A stretch of DNA of 64,000 nt from Comamonadaceae bacterium (GTDB lineage Bacteria; Pseudomonadota; Gammaproteobacteria; Burkholderiales; Burkholderiaceae_C): positions 62,001-126,000 of the forward strand of contig JAIXOM010000045.1 of assembly GCA_027486755.1 (NCBI GenBank). The letters are read 5' to 3'. Position 1 is the first letter of the stretch. Each line of letters starts with the position of its first letter. Below are positions 22,653 to 32,862 of the stretch, one piece after another. A program made the translations under genes and the position numbers. The notes under the pieces are model-generated. The model searched no databases. It saw only the letters and a program-made list of their open reading frames with translations, and was not told the DNA's origin.

Positions 22653-24608
22653 TCAACCGGCCACCGGCCGAGCCAGCCGCACCGCCTTGGACATGCCTTG
22701 CGCATCGGCGTAGGGCAGGGGCAGGTAGTGGGCCCGCATGGTCTGGGCCAGTACCTGTGCGGTGGGCTGGGGCTGGGCCGAGGTGTCGATCAACAGGCAG
22801 GAGAACTGCTCCAGAGCCAGGGCCCGTGCGGCGGCCAGGGCGTCTTCACCGGCCTTGCCGCGTCCGGGGCTGCCGTCGCGGGCGATGTTGGCGCGGCCGT
22901 CGGTGAGCAGCACCACCACGGGCGCGTCGCCGCTGCGCGCGATCTGCCCGGCCAGCTTGTGCGCCGTCTCCAGTGCGCTGGCCAGCGGCGTGCCGCCGCC
23001 GCCGGGCAGGCCGGCCAGCGAGCGCTTGGCGCGGGCCAGGGAGCGGGTCGGGGGCAGCAGGACTTCAGCCCCGCTGCCCCGAAAGGAAATGACCGCCACC
23101 CGGTCGCGGCGCACATAGCAGTCGGCCAGCAGCAGCTCGACCGCGCCCTTGGCCTCGGCCAGGCGGTGCAGGGCCGAGGATCCTGATGCGTCGACCACGA
23201 AGACGGTGGTGGTCGAGCGCTGCTGCTTAAAGCGCATGATGTGAAAGTCGTCGCGGCGCACCTCAATGCGGCGCACAGCCGCTTTCGCCGGCTCGATCGG
23301 CCGACCCTGCTTGCGCAGGGCCTGCCAGGGCGCTGCCGCGCGCAGGGTGGCCAGCACGTTCAGGCGCGCGCCGTCGCGCAAGGCACCGCGCACCGCGCCC
23401 AGCGGCCGGCCGCGCCGCAGATTTTTTTGCGCGGCGCCAGAGCGGCCCGCGCCGGCAGAGGTCTGGCGGGCGATCTTGCCGGCCCGCAGCGCCGCCAGCA
23501 GCCCGGGCGACAGGCTGGCTTTGGCGGCGGTAATCATCACTTCCTGCAGTTCCTCGGCCGAGGGCAGCTCGAACTGCTTATCGCTGCCATCTTCATCTTG
23601 CTGCGGCTCTTCCTTGTGCGGCGGATTCTGCGGCGGGGGTGGCGGTGGGTCCTGCGCCGGTTCGGCGTCCTGCTCATTGGCTGCTTGCTCCTGAGCATCG
23701 TCCTCGGTCTGCTCGGGCGGCAGGGGCAGCCGGGTAGCCCGTGGGGCCAAGATCAGGCGGGCGGCCAGGGCGGCATGGGCGTCGCTGACTTCCCCAGAAC
23801 CTTCCAGGGCGGCTGCTGCCCGGGCCGCCTTGGCCGCCAGCAGGGGCGGGCGCAGGGAATCGATGCCCAGCATCAAGGCGGTACCGCACAAGGCCTGCAA
23901 CTGCCGCTCGCCCAGGCTGAGGCTGGGCAGACGTTCGCGTGCGGCCAGCACATCGGCTGCATTCAGGCCGGCCTCGGGCTCAAGCTCGGCTGCTTGCAAC
24001 AGCGCCTGCTGCTCGTCCTGCGGCTGCGGGGGCTCCAGCCAAAAGCCCAGCCTGTCCTGCAGGGCTTGGGGCGCGCCTTCATCATCGTCCTGGCCTTCAT
24101 CCAAGGCGATCAGGGTCAAGCTCAGGTCGAGCTGCTGGGCCAGGCCGTCGCGCTGCACTTGCAGCTGCCGGGTATCCAGTGCAGACGCCAGCTTGCCGGC
24201 CAGGTCTGCGCCTAAGCGCTCGGCCATGGTCAGCAGCAGCACGCCGCCGTGGGCCTGGCTGAGCAGGCCGGGCTGCAACACAGGCTGGCCGCGGCTGAGG
24301 GTGGCTGCCAGGTCCAGGCCGCCGAGCAAGGCGCTGTCGCTGATGCCCGCCGGCAGGCGTCGCCAGGGGCTGCCCACCGGCATCAGCGCCCGGAGCCGAT
24401 CGAGCCAGGCATCGCGCCAGGGACCGGGCGCAGAGCGCAGGCAGGCCCCACCCAGCCCGACCGGATCAACGGCCAGCAAGGCGGCGGCCCAAGCGGCATC
24501 GGCCTGCAGACTCAGGCCTTGTGCTTGCAAGGGGTCGGCGGCATCGGGCAAGCTTTGCATGGGGCGGCCTGTCAGCACGGCGGGCCTAGGCTTAGGTGGT
24601 CTGCGCAC
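22653..24608 (-). CDS. bchD: Magnesium chelatase subunit D
   Basis: A 651-residue subunit of the enzyme that inserts Mg2+ into protoporphyrin IX, the first committed step of bacteriochlorophyll synthesis. The N-terminal AAA+-like domain (about 30-290) lacks a usable Walker A, as in all BchD. A Pro/acidic linker spans about 300-348, including a run of six prolines. The C-terminal von Willebrand A domain has the MIDAS motif DASGS at about 473-477 and the LPGGGGTPLA loop. The GTG at 24608 follows the bchI stop by three bases with TAGGA just upstream; an ATG at 24560 is a possible alternative. Confidence 0.93.
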   Translation of the reverse strand: MRRPPKPRPAVLTGRPMQSLPDAADPLQAQGLSLQADAAWAAALLAVDPVGLGGACLRSAPGPWRDAWLDRLRALMPVGSPWRRLPAGISDSALLGGLDLAATLSRGQPVLQPGLLSQAHGGVLLLTMAERLGADLAGKLASALDTRQLQVQRDGLAQQLDLSLTLIALDEGQDDDEGAPQALQDRLGFWLEPPQPQDEQQALLQAAELEPEAGLNAADVLAARERLPSLSLGERQLQALCGTALMLGIDSLRPPLLAAKAARAAAALEGSGEVSDAHAALAARLILAPRATRLPLPPEQTEDDAQEQAANEQDAEPAQDPPPPPPQNPPHKEEPQQDEDGSDKQFELPSAEELQEVMITAAKASLSPGLLAALRAGKIARQTSAGAGRSGAAQKNLRRGRPLGAVRGALRDGARLNVLATLRAAAPWQALRKQGRPIEPAKAAVRRIEVRRDDFHIMRFKQQRSTTTVFVVDASGSSALHRLAEAKGAVELLLADCYVRRDRVAVISFRGSGAEVLLPPTRSLARAKRSLAGLPGGGGTPLASALETAHKLAGQIARSGDAPVVVLLTDGRANIARDGSPGRGKAGEDALAAARALALEQFSCLLIDTSAQPQPTAQVLAQTMRAHYLPLPYADAQGMSKAVRLARPVAG

Positions 24609-24611
24609 GTC

Positions 24612-25658
24612 CTAGCGCGGCAGCAGTTCGGCCAGGGCGCGCTCGACCCGTGCGGTCGAACCGGTATCGTCGAGCACATGGCGGCGCAGGCGGTGGCGTA
24701 GCGCAGCTGGGGCCACCTGCCGCAGATGGGCGTCGGTGACTTCAGGGTCACCTTGCAGGGCCGCGCTGGCGCGGGCCGCCCGCATCAGCGTCATGTCGCC
24801 GCGCAGGCCGTCGGTGCCCAGCGCCATGCACAGCTCAGAGGCGCGTTGGCGGGCGCTGTCCGGCACGGCGGTATCGTGCAGGCGCTTGCGTGCAGCTTGG
24901 ACTTTTTTGCGGATTTTTTCGGCCGGCTTGTCCCAGTGCGCACAGAAAGCGGCCGGGTCGCGCTCGAATTCTTCGCGGCGGCGTACCACTTCGACCCGGC
25001 TGGCCAGGTCGGCCGGGGTCTTGACTTCGACCGACAGGCCAAAGCGGTCGAGCAGCTGCGGGCGCAGTTCACCTTCTTCGGGGTTGCCGCTGCCCACGAG
25101 GACAAAGCGGGCGGGGTGCCGCACCGACAGGCCCTCGCGTTCGACCACGTTCTCACCCGAGGCGGCCACATCAATCAGCAGGTCGACCAGGTGGTCTTCC
25201 AGCAGGTTGACCTCGTCGATATAGAGAAAGCCCCGGTTGGCTCGCGCCAGCAGGCCGGGCTCGAAGGCCTTGATGCCTTGTGACAGCGCACGTTCCAGAT
25301 CGAGCGCACCGACCACCCGGTCTTCGGTGGCGCCCAAAGGCAGGTCGATCACGGGGACCGCTTGCGTGTGGGTTTTGAGCGTCTTGCCCTCCTGCAGCGC
25401 GCTGCGGCAGGTATCGCAGCAGCGGCCGGGCTGGCCGGGGTCGCAGCCGTAGGGACACCCGGTGACAACTTTCATCGGGGGCAGCAGCGCCGCCAGCGCC
25501 CGCACCGCGGTGGACTTGCCCGTGCCGCGGTCACCGAGTACCAGGACACCGCCCATGGAAGGATCGACTGCGGCCATTAGGATTGCCAGCTTCATCTCGT
25601 CCTGCCCGACGATGGCTGCGAAGGGGAAGGTATACGCCATGGTCGGCAAGTATGACAT
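24612..25658 (-). CDS. bchI: Magnesium chelatase subunit I (AAA+ ATPase)
   Basis: The 348-residue ATPase forms rings with BchD and drives Mg2+ insertion by BchH, which is not in this window. Walker A is GDRGTGKST near residues 42-50, Walker B FLYIDEVNLLEDH, and the sensor region GSGNPEEGELRPQLLDRFGL is strongly BchI-like. A Cys-containing insertion (CPYGCDPGQPGRCCDTC, about 68-84) is typical of proteobacterial BchI and may be redox-sensitive. The start is uncertain: ATG at 25658, or ATG at 25640 giving MAYTFPFAAIVGQ, which is closer to usual BchI N-termini. The TGT-N12-ACA site at 25676-25693 lies just upstream. Confidence 0.93.
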   Translation of the reverse strand: MSYLPTMAYTFPFAAIVGQDEMKLAILMAAVDPSMGGVLVLGDRGTGKSTAVRALAALLPPMKVVTGCPYGCDPGQPGRCCDTCRSALQEGKTLKTHTQAVPVIDLPLGATEDRVVGALDLERALSQGIKAFEPGLLARANRGFLYIDEVNLLEDHLVDLLIDVAASGENVVEREGLSVRHPARFVLVGSGNPEEGELRPQLLDRFGLSVEVKTPADLASRVEVVRRREEFERDPAAFCAHWDKPAEKIRKKVQAARKRLHDTAVPDSARQRASELCMALGTDGLRGDMTLMRAARASAALQGDPEVTDAHLRQVAPAALRHRLRRHVLDDTGSTARVERALAELLPR

Positions 25659-27394: not shown

Positions 27395-27901
27395 TTATCG
27401 CCGCGCCAGCGATACGAAGCTGTAGCCCAGCCCGGTTTTGGAGACGCCGCTGCTGCGGCTCGCCTCCAGCCACTGCGCGCCCAACAGGGGCGCATAGGCA
27501 TCGCCTTCAAAGCTCTGCTCGATTTCCGTGACTTCAATCCGATCAGCCAGGGGCTCGGCCTGGGCGTAGATCTGCGCCCCCCCGATGACCCAGACCTCCT
27601 GGGCCTGCTCGCATAGCGCAAGTGCCTGCGCAAGGCCGTCCGCCCGCTCGGCGCCAGGCGCCTGCCAGTCGGCTTGACGCGTCAGCACGATGTTGCGCCT
27701 GCCAGGTAGGGGCCGAAAGCGCTCGGGCAGTGAGTCCCAGGTCTTGCGACCCATGATCACCGGATGGCCCTGGGTGAGTGTGCGGAAATGCGCCAGGTCT
27801 TCCGGCAGGTGCCAGGGCATGGTGCCGTCCTTGCCAATCACGCCGTTGGCGGCGCGGGCATAGATCAGCGCGATGCGTGGCCCCGTCTTATCCGCAGGCA
27901 T
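27395..27901 (-). CDS. folA: Dihydrofolate reductase
   Basis: A 168-residue enzyme of standard bacterial length that reduces dihydrofolate to tetrahydrofolate with NADPH. The conserved blocks are ANGVIGKDGTMPWHLPEDLAHF (catalytic acidic residue in LPEDL, near 34-36), VIMGRKTWDSLP and VWVIGGAQIYAQA. The start overlaps the thyA stop by one base (TGATG), as expected for an operon in which FolA recycles the dihydrofolate produced by ThyA. Confidence 0.97.
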   Translation of the reverse strand: MPADKTGPRIALIYARAANGVIGKDGTMPWHLPEDLAHFRTLTQGHPVIMGRKTWDSLPERFRPLPGRRNIVLTRQADWQAPGAERADGLAQALALCEQAQEVWVIGGAQIYAQAEPLADRIEVTEIEQSFEGDAYAPLLGAQWLEASRSSGVSKTGLGYSFVSLARR

Positions 27902-28731
27902 CAGACGGCCACCGGCGCCTTGATGGCCGGGTGGTGCTCGTAGCCCACCACCTCGAAATCTGCGAACTCGTATTCGAAGATGCTGGCCGGCGTGCGCCGG
28001 ATCACCAGCTGCGGGTAGGGCAGGGGCGTGCGCGAGAGCTGCAACTCAACCTGCTCCTGGTGGTTGCTGTAGATGTGGCAGTCGCCACCCGTCCAGATGA
28101 AATCGCCCACATCCAAGTCGCATTGCTGGGCCACCATGTGGGTGAGCAGCGCGTAGCTGGCAATATTGAAGGGCACCCCCAGAAAAATGTCGGCGCTCCT
28201 TTGGTAGAGCTGGCAGCTCAGGCGGGCCCGCTCGCTGCCTTGGGCCGGTGCCACATAGAACTGGAAAAAGGCATGGCAGGGCATGAGGGCCATCTTGGAC
28301 AGCTCAGCCACATTCCAGGCACTGACGATGATGCGGCGCGAATCTGGGTTGCTCTTGAGGGTCTTGATGACGTCGGCAATCTGGTCGATGTGCCCGCCAT
28401 CGGGCGTGGGCCAGCTGCGCCACTGCACCCCATAGACCGGACCGAGGTCACCGTCTTCTCGCGCCCATTCGTCCCATATGCTCACGCCCCGCTCATGCAG
28501 CCAATTGTTGTTGCTCGAACCCTGGAGGAACCACAGCAGCTCATAAATGATGCTCTTGAGGTGCACCTTCTTGGTGGTCACCAGCGGAAAGCCTTGCCGC
28601 AGATCGAAGCGCATTTGGTGGCCAAACACGCTCTTGGTGCCGGTGCCGGTGCGGTCGGGCTTGAACACGCCATGGGTGTTGACATGGCGCATGAAGTCCT
28701 CGTACTGCGAGAACGGGCTGGGGCTGGTCAT
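27901..28731 (-). CDS. thyA: Thymidylate synthase
   Basis: A 276-residue enzyme converting dUMP to dTMP using methylene-tetrahydrofolate. The catalytic Cys is in the [13 protein letters not shown] block (near residue 152); other family blocks are [18 protein letters not shown] and [20 protein letters not shown]. The ATG at 28731 gives the normal N-terminus; another at 28770 would add 13 residues. Neither has a clear Shine-Dalgarno sequence. The region upstream carries a REP-like hairpin and the repeat elements described below. Confidence 0.97.
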
Positions 28732-28770
28732 GGTGGGGCTAGGGAGATGGGGACGGATGAGAAGGGTCAT

Positions 28771-28798
28771 TGTAGGAGCGCCGCCCTCGGCGCGATGC
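28771..28798 (+). repeat. REP-like palindrome beginning GTAG
   Basis: The sequence starts TGTAGGAGC and contains the perfect 6-bp stem GCGCCG/CGGCGC (28778-28783 and 28788-28793) around a CCCT loop. A GTAG start followed by a short GC-rich hairpin is the layout of REP elements mobilised by RAYT transposases in several proteobacteria. Only one clear copy is seen in the window, about 40 bases upstream of thyA. Confidence 0.5.
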
Positions 28799-28839
28799 GG
28801 CTGCTGATCAAGCGCAGCATTTTTCAGAGGCGCTTTCGA

Positions 28840-28942
28840 GAAGGGCGCACGGATGGGCACTGCGCTGCTCGTGTCCCCCGCCTCGGCTAGCGCCTCGGCT
28901 CCTCCTCTACCTCGCCGCGCAGCGCCCACCCGCACGCCCTTC
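28840..28942 (-). repeat. Stem-forming repeat element, copy 1
   Basis: The left arm (28840-28868) and right arm (28914-28942) are complementary over 29 positions with 5 differences, around a loop of about 45 bases that contains the core GTCCCCCGCCTCGGCT followed by a second GCCTCGGC. Four of the five differences become G-U pairs in RNA of the minus strand. Copy 2 is nearly identical over 102 bases. Confidence 0.75.
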
Positions 28943-29021
28943 GGCAGTACGAGCGACGCGCCCTCTGTTTAGAAATTCCAGCAGCCCGGGTTTGGCCGCA
29001 GCCTGCAACCTTAACCTACGG

Positions 29022-29115
29022 CCGGTGCGTCGGGCCTGGCGGAGCGGCATAAAGGAGGAGCCGAGGCGCCAGCCGAGGCGGGGGACAGCCGCGCAGGCAG
29101 GCCCGATGTGGCGGT
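29022..29115 (+). repeat. Stem-forming repeat element, copy 3 (inverted, divergent arms)
   Basis: The core (AGGAGGAGCCGAGGCG and AGCCGAGGCGGGGGAC, 29053-29086) is the reverse complement of the copy 1/2 core with one substitution, but the flanking arms differ in sequence from copies 1 and 2. They still pair with each other, notably TCGGGCCTG (29030-29038) with CAGGCCCGA (29099-29107) and GCGGC with GCCGC next to the core. Confidence 0.65.
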
Positions 29116-29203
29116 CGTTACCCAGGCGCTTGTACGACTAGCTCCGCTAAGTGATTTTGCAGCGGTCTTTGGTGAAGCGCCCAACGCTTCAGGGCGTATT
29201 GAA

Positions 29204-29305
29204 GAAGGGCGCACGGGTAGGCACTGCGCTGCTCGTGTCCCCCGCCTCGGCTAGCGCCTCGGCTCCTCCTCTACCTCGCCGCGCAGCGCCCACCCGCACG
29301 CCCTT
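29204..29305 (-). repeat. Stem-forming repeat element, copy 2
   Basis: A direct copy of the 28840 element over 102 bases with two substitutions in the left arm (GGATGGG becomes GGGTAGG). Both substitutions keep the arms pairable when read as minus-strand RNA. It ends about 100 bases before the convergent end of the flavoprotein gene at 29408. Confidence 0.75.
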
Positions 29306-29407
29306 TGGTCTTTCAAGTGCTCCGCTCGCTGCGTAGAGGATTCATGCGCTGGCCGCTACCCGGTCTATTTCACAGGAAACGCCGCGCCCCAAAGTCCAAG
29401 CGGCTGC

Positions 29408-30832
29408 TTAGACCCTCAGTACCCGACCCGGATTGAGGATCCCCTGCGGATCCAAGGCGCGCTTGATGCTGCGCATCATCTCGAGGGCCACCGGGCTCTT
29501 GTGGTGTTCGAGCTCGCCCACCTTGAGGCCGCCCACGCCGTGCTCGGCCGAGATCGAGCCGCCGAAGGCGCGCACCGCTTCGTAGACCAGGCTGTTGACC
29601 CGCGCTTCCTGTGTTTTCAGAAATAGTTTGGCATCCCCGCCCGCAGGTGCCTGCACGTTGTAGTGCAGATTGCCATCGCCCAAATGCCCGAAATTGACCA
29701 CACGCACGCCGGCGATCTCGCCTTCGAGCAGGGCCTGGGCATGGCGCACAAATTCCGGGATGCGCGAGATCGGTACCGATATGTCGTGCTTGATGTTCAG
29801 CCCCTCTTCGGCCTGGGCCAGCGGGATGGACTCACGGACATGCCACAGCTGCTGCGCCTGGCTGATGTTTTCGGCCACCACCGCATCGCTGACCAGGCCT
29901 TGCTCCAAAGCTTGCTCCAGCAAGCGCTCGAGCATGGCCCGGGCGTGCTCGGGCGACTCGTGGTCGGAGTGTTCGAGCAGTACGCCATAAGCGCTGGTGT
30001 CATGGAACGGCACGCGCAATGGCGGAAAGTGCTTGACCACCAGGCTCAGCGCAAACTGGCTCATCACCTCAAAGCCGGTCAGGCAGGCACTGAGCTGCTG
30101 CTGTGCCAGGCCGAGCAGGGCGACCGCCTTTTCCATCGATTCGACTGCCGCCCAGGCGGTCAATTGCGCCGTCGGCAGGGGGTAGAGCTTGAGAGTGGCT
30201 GCGGTGATCACGCCCAGCGTGCCTTCGCTGCCGATGAAAAGGTCGCGCAGGTCATAACCGGTGTTGTCCTTGCGCAGGCCCGAGAGGCCCTCCCAGACCT
30301 CGCCCTGGGCCGTCACCACTTGCAGGCCTAAGCAAAGTTCGCGGGCGTTGCCGTAGCGCAGCACCTGCGTGCCGCCGGCGTTGGTGGCCAGGTTGCCGCC
30401 TATGGTGCAACTGCCTTCGGCAGCCAAGCTCAGGGGAAACAGCAGGCCCTCTTGCTGTGCGCGTTCCTGCAAGGCCTGCAGGATGCAGCCGGCTTCGACC
30501 GTCACGGTGAGGTTAGCCTTGTCGATGGCCAGCACCCGGTTCATGCGTTGCAGGCTGAGCACCACCTGGCGGCCAGAATCGTCAGGGGTGGAGCCCACCA
30601 CCAGCCCGGTGTTGCCTCCTTGTGGCACCATGCTCACCCCATGCCTTGCACACGCTTGCACCACCTGCGCCACCTGAGTGGCTGAGTCGGGTCGCACCAC
30701 CGCCAGCGCCTTACCGCGGCTCCTCTTGCGCCAGTCGGACTCCCAGGCGCTCAGATCGCCGCCTTTGAGCACATGGGCAGGCCCGCAGATCTGCGCCAGT
30801 TCTTGCAGCAGCGCAGAAGCGGGCTGGCTCAC
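29408..30832 (-). CDS. FAD-linked oxidase, D-2-hydroxyacid dehydrogenase (GlcD/DLD) type
   Basis: A 474-residue flavoprotein with an N-terminal FAD_binding_4 domain (VVRPDSATQVAQVV, PQGGNTGLVVGS, IGGNLATNAGGTQVLRYG, FIGSEGTLGVIT) and a C-terminal FAD-oxidase_C domain with the metal-site pattern NFGHLGDGNLHYN and AEHGVGGLK. This layout fits D-lactate, glycolate or D-2-hydroxyglutarate dehydrogenases; the length and the GxGNLHYN block favour D-2-hydroxyglutarate or D-lactate type. The GTG at 30832 overlaps the stop of the DUF2069 gene and gives a normal N-terminus; an upstream in-frame start at 30910 lies in that gene. Confidence 0.88.
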   Translation of the reverse strand: MSQPASALLQELAQICGPAHVLKGGDLSAWESDWRKRSRGKALAVVRPDSATQVAQVVQACARHGVSMVPQGGNTGLVVGSTPDDSGRQVVLSLQRMNRVLAIDKANLTVTVEAGCILQALQERAQQEGLLFPLSLAAEGSCTIGGNLATNAGGTQVLRYGNARELCLGLQVVTAQGEVWEGLSGLRKDNTGYDLRDLFIGSEGTLGVITAATLKLYPLPTAQLTAWAAVESMEKAVALLGLAQQQLSACLTGFEVMSQFALSLVVKHFPPLRVPFHDTSAYGVLLEHSDHESPEHARAMLERLLEQALEQGLVSDAVVAENISQAQQLWHVRESIPLAQAEEGLNIKHDISVPISRIPEFVRHAQALLEGEIAGVRVVNFGHLGDGNLHYNVQAPAGGDAKLFLKTQEARVNSLVYEAVRAFGGSISAEHGVGGLKVGELEHHKSPVALEMMRSIKRALDPQGILNPGRVLRV

Positions 30833-31203
30833 GGCTGCGGCTCCTCCACGCGCGGCGCTGCCAGCCTGACCCGCACATGCAGGGCGCAGGCGGTGAACAA
30901 GCTCAGGCACAGGACGACCTCGATCAGCCCCAGGATATTGCCCGGAGGCTTGTCGCTCCAGGCGCGCACTACCCCCTCAGTGAAGTAGAGCCAGACCATC
31001 AGGCTGACCCAGCGGTAGGTATAGAGCTTCCTTTTGAGCAAGCCCGCCAGCGGCAAGCACAGCGGCAGCACCTTGAGTGCCAGCAGTGAGCCGCCTGGCC
31101 GAATCGGGGCCAGCCACAGTTCCCATGCGAGCCCCAGGATGATCAGGCCGGCCAGGCTGCCGACGGCCAGCCAGCGGGTGAAGTCGACAGAGGGATTGTT
31201 CAT
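30829..31203 (-). CDS. DUF2069 family membrane protein
   Basis: A 124-residue protein with four hydrophobic segments and the DUF2069 pattern, including LPLAGLLKRKLYTYRWVSL-MVWLYFTEG. Its function is unknown; in many proteobacteria it is encoded near yihY-like or wrbA genes. Here it is divergent from the YihY gene with only about ten bases between start codons, and its stop overlaps the flavoprotein start (GTGA), so those two are co-translated. Confidence 0.85.
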   Translation of the reverse strand: MNNPSVDFTRWLAVGSLAGLIILGLAWELWLAPIRPGGSLLALKVLPLCLPLAGLLKRKLYTYRWVSLMVWLYFTEGVVRAWSDKPPGNILGLIEVVLCLSLFTACALHVRVRLAAPRVEEPQP

Positions 31204-32499: not shown

Positions 32500-32862
32500 A
32501 TGCAGACCGTCAACATTCGGCAACTTAAGACCAATCCCAGTACTGCGCTGGCTGCCGCGCGCGCCGACGATATGGTCGTTGTCATGAACCGGGACCACCC
32601 ACAGGCCCTGCTGGTTGATCTGGAAAAGCTCGGGCTGCCCGACCTGCCGGCTGTGCGCGTGGCATTGGCTGTGTCCTTGTTTCGCAGCGCTGCTGTGTCG
32701 GCGGGATTTGCTGCCCGAATGGCAGGCAAACCATTGGCCGAAATGCTGACGCTGTTCTCCAGCCAGGGTATACCGCTTACTGGCAACGACAAAGCCGCTG
32801 CCGATGAAGCCCGCGCCGAAATGCGTGACGCCCGAGATTGGTTGGTCAAGTCCGCTGCGTGA
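32500..32862 (+). CDS. Antitoxin with Phd-like N-terminus and UPF0175-like C-terminus
   Basis: A 120-residue protein. Residues 1-45 (MQTVNIRQLKTNPSTALAAA, then VVVMNRDHPQALLVDLEKLG) resemble the Phd/YefM DNA-binding domain. Residues about 58-95 (ALAVSLFRSAAVSAGFAARMAGKPLAEML and the following SSQGIPL) resemble UPF0175, a family that neutralises DUF3368 PIN toxins. Its stop overlaps the GTG of a DUF3368 gene, the usual partner. It would bind DNA to repress the pair and block the toxin. The partner gene is frameshifted, so its present role may be vestigial. Confidence 0.75.
   Translation: MQTVNIRQLKTNPSTALAAARADDMVVVMNRDHPQALLVDLEKLGLPDLPAVRVALAVSLFRSAAVSAGFAARMAGKPLAEMLTLFSSQGIPLTGNDKAAADEARAEMRDARDWLVKSAA

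Follow-up and report, generated by a model that had tools for sequence, protein, structure and literature searches.

The window under study is the whole stretch of 64,000 nucleotides analyzed from a Comamonadaceae genome. Within it, the intergenic stretch between a thymidylate synthase gene (27901-28731, minus strand) and a FAD-linked oxidase gene (29408-30910, minus strand), both identified by Pfam, contains three imperfect palindromes of about 100 bases each at 28840-29306. Copy 1 (28840-28942) and copy 2 (29204-29306) carry arms of type A, and copy 3 (about 29020-29115), which carries arms of type B, sits between them in the opposite orientation and is divergently paired with copy 1. As stated in the initial annotation of this locus, copies 1 and 2 are direct and nearly identical repeats, and copy 3 is inverted with a retained core and with arms that are unlike those of the other two copies yet complementary to each other. 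Copies 1 and 2 have 100 of 103 bases in common. The core of copy 1 (28872-28907, minus strand) reads GAGGAGGAG, an apical hairpin, and CGGGGGACA, with G instead of A as its first base; that of copy 2 lies at 29236-29271 on the minus strand; and that of copy 3 (29052-29087, plus strand) reads AAGGAGGAG, an apical hairpin, and CGGGGGACA. The 36-base core of copy 3 differs from those of copies 1 and 2 at two positions. With a core pattern of 32 letters, one of them left free, each of the three copies was matched without a mismatch; 100 shuffles gave an expectation of 0.00 matches.

The strand reading GGAGGAG was the best-folding single strand in every one of the three copies. Its fold z-scores against shuffled sequences were -6.39 for copy 1 (minus strand), -4.80 for copy 3 (plus strand), and -7.73 for copy 2 (minus strand), compared to -3.9, -1.0, and -4.3 for the respective opposite strands. 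Functional strands are arranged in the order minus, plus, minus along the array (copies 1, 3, and 2). The two cores of the window pair are also able to pair with each other, at 82% over 56 nt.

A search of the 4.0-Mb genome with the core GTCCCCCGCCTCGGCT identified 30 copies at no more than one mismatch, of which 27 were exact and 15 were found on each strand, and the backward-read control of the core pattern had 0 matches in the same genome. The initial annotation had considered that the copies might number only three, with no pairing in any others, or that the repeat might correspond to the end of a known transposon. Neither was observed: the copies are far more numerous and their arms pair, and the analysis did not find a known transposon end that matches them. 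Among the copies of this genome, arm types A and B share one core, and in the arrays they alternate in opposite orientations with recurring spacings. Several contigs have a boundary within or near one of these arrays, namely the starts of C23, C40, and C42, both ends of C33, and the ends of C16, C22, C29, and C41. The true copy number is therefore probably above the count in the assembly, and the hairpin repeats are a likely cause of the assembly breaks. One copy near a contig start (L027) has one arm of type A and the other of type B, which may reflect a chimeric assembly; it was left out of the alignments A1-A4, and it was kept in the pairing and G.U counts of 175 elements described below.

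Other short repeats were seen next to the arrays. A GTAG-tagged REP-like palindrome adjoins the window array at 28772-28797 on the plus strand, and palindromes of this type (GGAGCGCCGCCCTCGGCGCGATG, tagged with GTAG or GTGG and counted at up to 3 mismatches) lie beside the arrays, sometimes in tandem, in 14 of the 30 fetched and partly overlapping loci, corresponding to 9 of 17 sites in the genome. Simple tandem repeats of the CACACC type directly adjoin some arrays, for example in the flanks of loci L001 and L011.

A stricter core pattern was found in only three of 61 genomes, namely the window's own genome and two others from a sample of 36 further members of the genus, and the named contigs that contain it are Comamonadaceae metagenome bins. 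The thymidylate synthase (thyA) site varied among relatives: the same triplet was present in G021, a single A-type hairpin with a shorter core and one altered but still paired arm position was present in G033, and no hairpin was found there in G007. Covariance models built from the A and B types had matches in 36 and 33 of 87 genus genomes, respectively. Many of these matches retain little besides AAGGAGGAG and CGGGGGACA, with the apical hairpin between them and the outer arms unrelated in sequence, and at the 26 loci read, most of the other genus genomes showed arms unlike the A and B types. The presence of 30 copies with two arm types in one genome and of other arms at the loci read from most other genomes of the genus suggests a lineage-specific amplification. 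The core proposed in the initial annotation is also longer than necessary: AAGGAGGAG and CGGGGGACA recur across the family, and the 18 letters that separate them in this genome are its own apical hairpin.

A generalized pattern, AAGGAGGAG-N(6-28)-GGGGGACA, was used for a wider search. Its matches within the family covered 77 of 141 genera and 163 of the 399 genomes sampled, and control matches occurred in one genome. In the sample of the order, 18 of 399 genomes had it; the same family accounts for seven of these and two further families for the remaining 11, and there was one control match. In the sample of the class it was found in four of 369 genomes, with three control matches. Two of the four class positives come from a different family within the class and had 13 and three matches. 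At the three distinct places read from these two genomes the arms pair (at one imperfectly, as judged by eye), and the minus-plus layout was observed at two, which indicates that the matches are not due to chance. The hairpin repeat is real, widespread, and structurally clear.

The anatomy of the hairpin was determined on the strand reading AAGGAGGAG from sets of 172 to 175 elements, which are non-redundant by their flank letters but include relatives and do not represent independent events. Each unit is a hairpin of about 100 nt composed of an outer stem of free sequence, two near-invariant purine-rich strands, and a free apical hairpin. The outer stem (P1) has a median length of 24 bp, with 22-25 bp in 108 and 18-33 bp in 157 of 172 elements; the counting rule returned 0-6 bp for 15 of the 172. 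The paired fraction is 0.80 at position 30 and drops to 0.35 by position 33. In most copies a 3x3 internal loop, often with GCA opposite GGA, is followed by an inner helix (P2) that is commonly of 5 bp (GCGGC/GCCGC, GCGAA/TTCGC, GGGAC/GTCCC, or versions with tandem G.A). As exceptions, P2 is reduced to one pair in some copies, and the copies from that different family within the class continue directly into the stem. The tetranucleotide GATC, often a palindrome closing the outer stem, was in excess at both stem bases, with 31 and 26 occurrences among 172 elements against shuffled maxima of 18 and 16.

Between the inner helix and the apical hairpin lies a purine joint, with T-N-AAGGAGGAG on the 5' side and CGGGGGACA on the 3' side, and with the T at position -2 in 168 of 175 elements. 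Its four GG tracts are nearly invariant, with A or G between two tracts, although this conservation is partly ascertained, because the search demanded those motifs (up to 2 mismatches each) together with paired arms. The combination GGAGG/GGGGG accounted for 153 of 174 elements, followed by GGAGG/GGAGG (5) and GGGGG/GGAGG (3), and GGGGG/GGGGG was not found (0). Such a joint may form either a two-tier quadruplex or a set of opposed purine mismatches. The apical hairpin (P3) occurred in 109 distinct sequences. Its stem had at least 3 bp in 93 cases, 58 of which had a three-base loop, and 31 of these 58 loops were of the GNA type. GNA triloops are specially stable in DNA.

The claim of the initial annotation that a conserved core and arms changing in concert reflect selection on structure is strongly supported by covariation in 20 elements and by stem pairing in 175. 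The covariation set comprised 20 gap-free elements of 31 with a 9-nt apical hairpin, as the other 11, which have a shortened inner helix, were shifted by the aligner and excluded. In this set, 95.5% of the cells were paired, compared to 67.2% after shuffling; the covariation score was 0.817, compared to 0.255; and 153 cells, compared to 49, had changes on both sides, with such changes in 24 of 28 pairs. None of 500 shuffles matched any of the five covariation measures, and sliding the partner by 1-3 columns reduced the pairing to 33-42%. Among the 175 elements, each of the outer stem positions 9-30 was paired in 79-97% of cases, against shuffled means of 39-77%. The strong covariation signal appears only once other genera are included: within the A and B families of the type found in the window's genome it was weak, with one both-side pair each, a level that 56 and 121 of 500 shuffles also attained.

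The wobble pairs were strongly biased toward one strand. The outer stems of the 175 elements contained 352 G.U and 41 A.C oppositions, with more G.U in 140 elements and more A.C in eight, and the G.U ratio of 0.896 exceeded the shuffled mean of 0.635 and maximum of 0.663. A duplex or a symmetrical cruciform would be indifferent to which strand carries the wobble, so the bias argues for selection on one strand in its folded, single-stranded form. The same strand again folds better with DNA folding parameters, and the folding preference therefore fits RNA and DNA alike. The free outer sequence, combined with a retained hairpin shape and two short motifs, is a clear sign of a folded single strand preserved by evolution.

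Copies were grouped by pattern into 102 clusters, of which 51 contained a single copy and 51 contained two or more. The divergent pair, exactly minus-plus, made up 41 of the 51 multi-copy clusters; the 45 clusters of two copies included these 41, two plus-plus, one minus-minus, and one plus-minus. Across all 47 minus-plus neighbors, the gap from core to core was 103-213 bases. With a looser pattern, a minus-plus partner was found for five of the 51 single copies, and 11 others are near a sequence end. The gene context was derived from a simple ORF score, by which nine of the 41 pairs were left uncalled and three were apparently inside ORFs; for the 29 with both neighbors called, the neighbors were convergent in 10, co-directional in 15, and divergent in four. 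Pairs are thus usually located beside gene 3' ends. Single copies had no clear orientation bias relative to co-directional neighbors, as judged from few cases.

Some pairs have been retained at orthologous sites. One pair recurs in eight species beside (upstream of) a gene whose product starts with MFNKILIANRGEIACRVI, which we take to be a biotin-carboxylase-like protein from reading its sequence. Hairpin 1, the spacer, and the flanks of this site align across the eight species. Hairpin 2 has one set of arms in three species and a very different set in the other five, and both sets are self-complementary. Between one representative of each group, the arms of hairpin 2 are identical at 11 of 23 (5' arm) and 14 of 23 positions (3' arm), compared to 22 of 23 and 21 of 23 for hairpin 1 in the same two representatives. 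These values for hairpin 2 are above the quarter expected by chance, and descent with fast change is therefore possible. From the alignment, the difference could reflect either substitution of a different copy by way of the core they share or very fast compensatory change. A second set of pairs, near another gene, also recurs in eight species as judged by eye.

Further readings of the repeat were rejected. The motif AAGGAGGAG is not a ribosome-binding site, as a start codon follows 4-10 nt downstream in only four of 172 elements. A phage or plasmid origin was not supported, given that window positions 28740-29400 had no blastn match in phage or plasmid records, and the exact core of this genome had no match in viral contigs. 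Excision, an insertion event, or a target-site duplication was not seen among the copies examined.

Two published elements resemble the repeat, though the likeness is one of description and not of sequence, and the window repeat may be identical to either. The Beta-proteobacterial repeat element (BRE), as described in the accessible part of the report by Hot et al. (2011; PMC3110155), is about 90 bp in full length and 40-60 bp in partial (conserved) form, has a mean GC content of 69%, and is mostly intergenic. It occurs in Comamonadaceae, Bordetella, and Azoarcus, with 29 copies in Polaromonas sp. JS666, 13 in Delftia acidovorans, and four in Rhodoferax ferrireducens, and it was found through bprJ, a small RNA detected by Northern blot. 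Size, intergenic location, and GC content fit the window repeat, and the host range may do so as well, the named contigs with the stricter core being from Comamonadaceae. In contrast, BREs are described as tandem copies that directly adjoin or lie only a few bases apart, and as conserved in sequence, unlike the spaced divergent pairs observed here, and the same part of that report mentions neither paired hairpins nor exchangeable arms (PMC3110155). The second candidate, Burkholderiales-1, is likened from its table entry alone: there it is listed as a candidate structured RNA of Burkholderiales with an RNA status of "?" and without an Rfam number (Weinberg et al., 2010; PMC2864571). Since BRE or Burkholderiales-1 could be the same element, the status of a new family, which the initial annotation had proposed, is not established. 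A further description of the window repeat was not found in the literature searched, which excludes most subscription papers.

Other repeats are similar in organization. Stem-loop repeats of the ERIC/NEMIS type are also intergenic imperfect palindromes of about 100 nt, but they retain the sequence of the stem, which is free in the window repeat. REPINs and BIMEs share more features, as they too are inverted hairpin pairs with spacers, mostly beside gene ends in intergenic regions and amplified within genomes, whose two cores are able to pair with each other. The window repeat differs from them in that its hairpins measure about 100 nt, the stem of roughly 24 bp is free in sequence, and the purine joint inside hardly varies; no GTAG/CGTC tag excess or link to a RAYT was found.

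We give a probability of about one half to the reading that the hairpins are a dispersed, non-autonomous, structured repeat of REPIN/BIME-like organization that is recognized by a factor acting in trans, where both the mobility of the repeat and the existence of the factor are what we infer. The natural unit would be a divergently oriented pair of hairpins of about 100 nt. The putative factor would read one folded single strand per hairpin, either RNA or single-stranded DNA exposed at a fork, and would recognize the purine strands AAGGAGGAG and CGGGGGACA held between the apical hairpin and the outer stem of about 24 bp. If only shape and stem length matter outside the purine strands, the arms could drift or be swapped freely as long as both change together. 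Copies would multiply within genomes, each lineage amplifying its own arm types, and would settle mostly next to gene 3' ends, with some pairs persisting across species. Against this reading weighs the half of the clusters (51 of 102) that are single-copy by pattern. The recurrence of two sets of pairs in eight species each is fitted as well by a host function as by a selfish element, and the many G.U pairs lean slightly toward RNA as the selected strand.

The RNA possibility also underlies the strongest competing explanation, which we consider somewhat less probable: a structured RNA family whose hairpins act in transcripts as a 3'-UTR stabilizer, an RNase III-type processing site, or a small RNA, with the divergent pair giving one correct fold from either side. 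The strong tolerance of G.U on one strand, an outer stem near 24 bp whatever its sequence, and the location beside gene ends all agree with such a role, as does the origin of BRE, so far as its description applies here, in a transcript detected on Northern blots (PMC3110155). However, Rfam 15 gave 0 matches at the gathering threshold in the 64-kb window, and relaxed thresholds gave only sub-threshold microRNA and snoRNA matches (16 loci; window positions 28500-29500). TTTT was found in 0 of 172 3' flanks and no U-tract follows the hairpin, which rules out an intrinsic terminator. The lack of a clear sense bias in single copies and the DNA-stable GNA type of 31 of the 58 apical triloops further count against this explanation.

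Membership in a REP/REPIN family moved by a RAYT (a Y1 HUH transposase) was not accepted and is unlikely. Inverted pairs, hairpins, a location near gene ends, and within-genome amplification are features of REPINs according to the part of the source available (PMC3116915), and the GTAG/GTGG-tagged REPs beside 9 of 17 sites of the window's genome would also agree with it. The diagnostic tags nevertheless gave a different picture at the hairpin bases of 172 elements. GTAG/CTAC occurred in 6 and 10 elements, below the shuffled values of 17.7 and 17.3, and CGTC/GACG, with 24 and 25 against 31.8 and 33.3, was not in excess either. On the 5' side of the stem base GTGG/CCAC was overrepresented: it occurred in 54 of 172 elements, against a shuffled mean of 32.7 and maximum of 42, and mostly took the form of CCAC scattered outside the stem (42 of 172). 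On the 3' side it was in deficit (25 against 37.4). The search for linked genes, which covered Y1 only, did not associate a transposase with the hairpins: the surroundings of 34 distinct Y1 loci (about 1.5-2 kb on each side, less at contig ends) contained no copy, although only 16 of these loci come from element-bearing genomes. Y1 presence was likewise not associated with the element, as Y1 genes were detected in 126 of the 163 genomes with it and in 166 of the 236 without it (Fisher p = 0.14), and 37 of the 163 element-bearing genomes had no detected Y1 gene. Units of about 100 nt are also longer than REPs, for which the accessible part of another report gives 20-40 bp (PMC3733652).

The only Y1 gene found in the window's own genome (L031, C1:27283) has no adjoining repeat copies and is not flanked by a GTAG/GTGG-tagged REP. 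It is bounded by inverted GGGGTCAGATACC stretches, resembling a tyrosine transposase flanked by terminal inverted repeats (TIRs) instead of REPs.

Least probable by far is that the hairpins are remnants of integron attC sites or of the end of a classical transposon (MITE), which the long inverted repeats, the patchy distribution, and the attC habit of keeping structure over sequence might suggest, but each stem pairs with itself and differs in sequence between copies, leaving no fixed terminal repeat, and the attC boxes R' (GTTRRRY) and R'' (RYYYAAC) occur at the stem bases at or below chance (1 and 0; 0 and 2 of 172).

A bolder and distinctly tentative extension is that these hairpins represent a class-wide kind of repeat selected for shape, with a free-sequence stem of nearly fixed length and a joint of GG(A/G)GG facing GG(G/A)GG, possibly a two-tier G-quadruplex between two helices, read on one strand by an undescribed factor. 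Whole arms would be replaced in concert at fixed sites, and the element would be inherited as a structure and not as a sequence. Whatever its cause, a strongly structured and strand-specific repeat for which there is no Rfam model is present in 77 of the 141 sampled genera of one large family. It offers a natural experiment, in which the putative factor would read shape and two short motifs and the arms are a free variable, and it makes the factor and the question of RNA versus DNA directly testable. It also raises the question of mechanism, namely how the two arms of a hairpin diverge jointly while the site stays the same.

Two other observations were made in the window. At 22653-25658, adjacent genes had Pfam matches of the Mg-chelatase type, to a ChlI-like AAA protein and a partner with a VWA domain, and this gene content suggests possible bacteriochlorophyll synthesis in the organism. 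At 32500-32862 lies a small ORF whose antitoxin-like matches are weak (UPF0175 above the cut-off, Phd/YefM below it); a short ORF follows, and the two are possibly a toxin-antitoxin pair.
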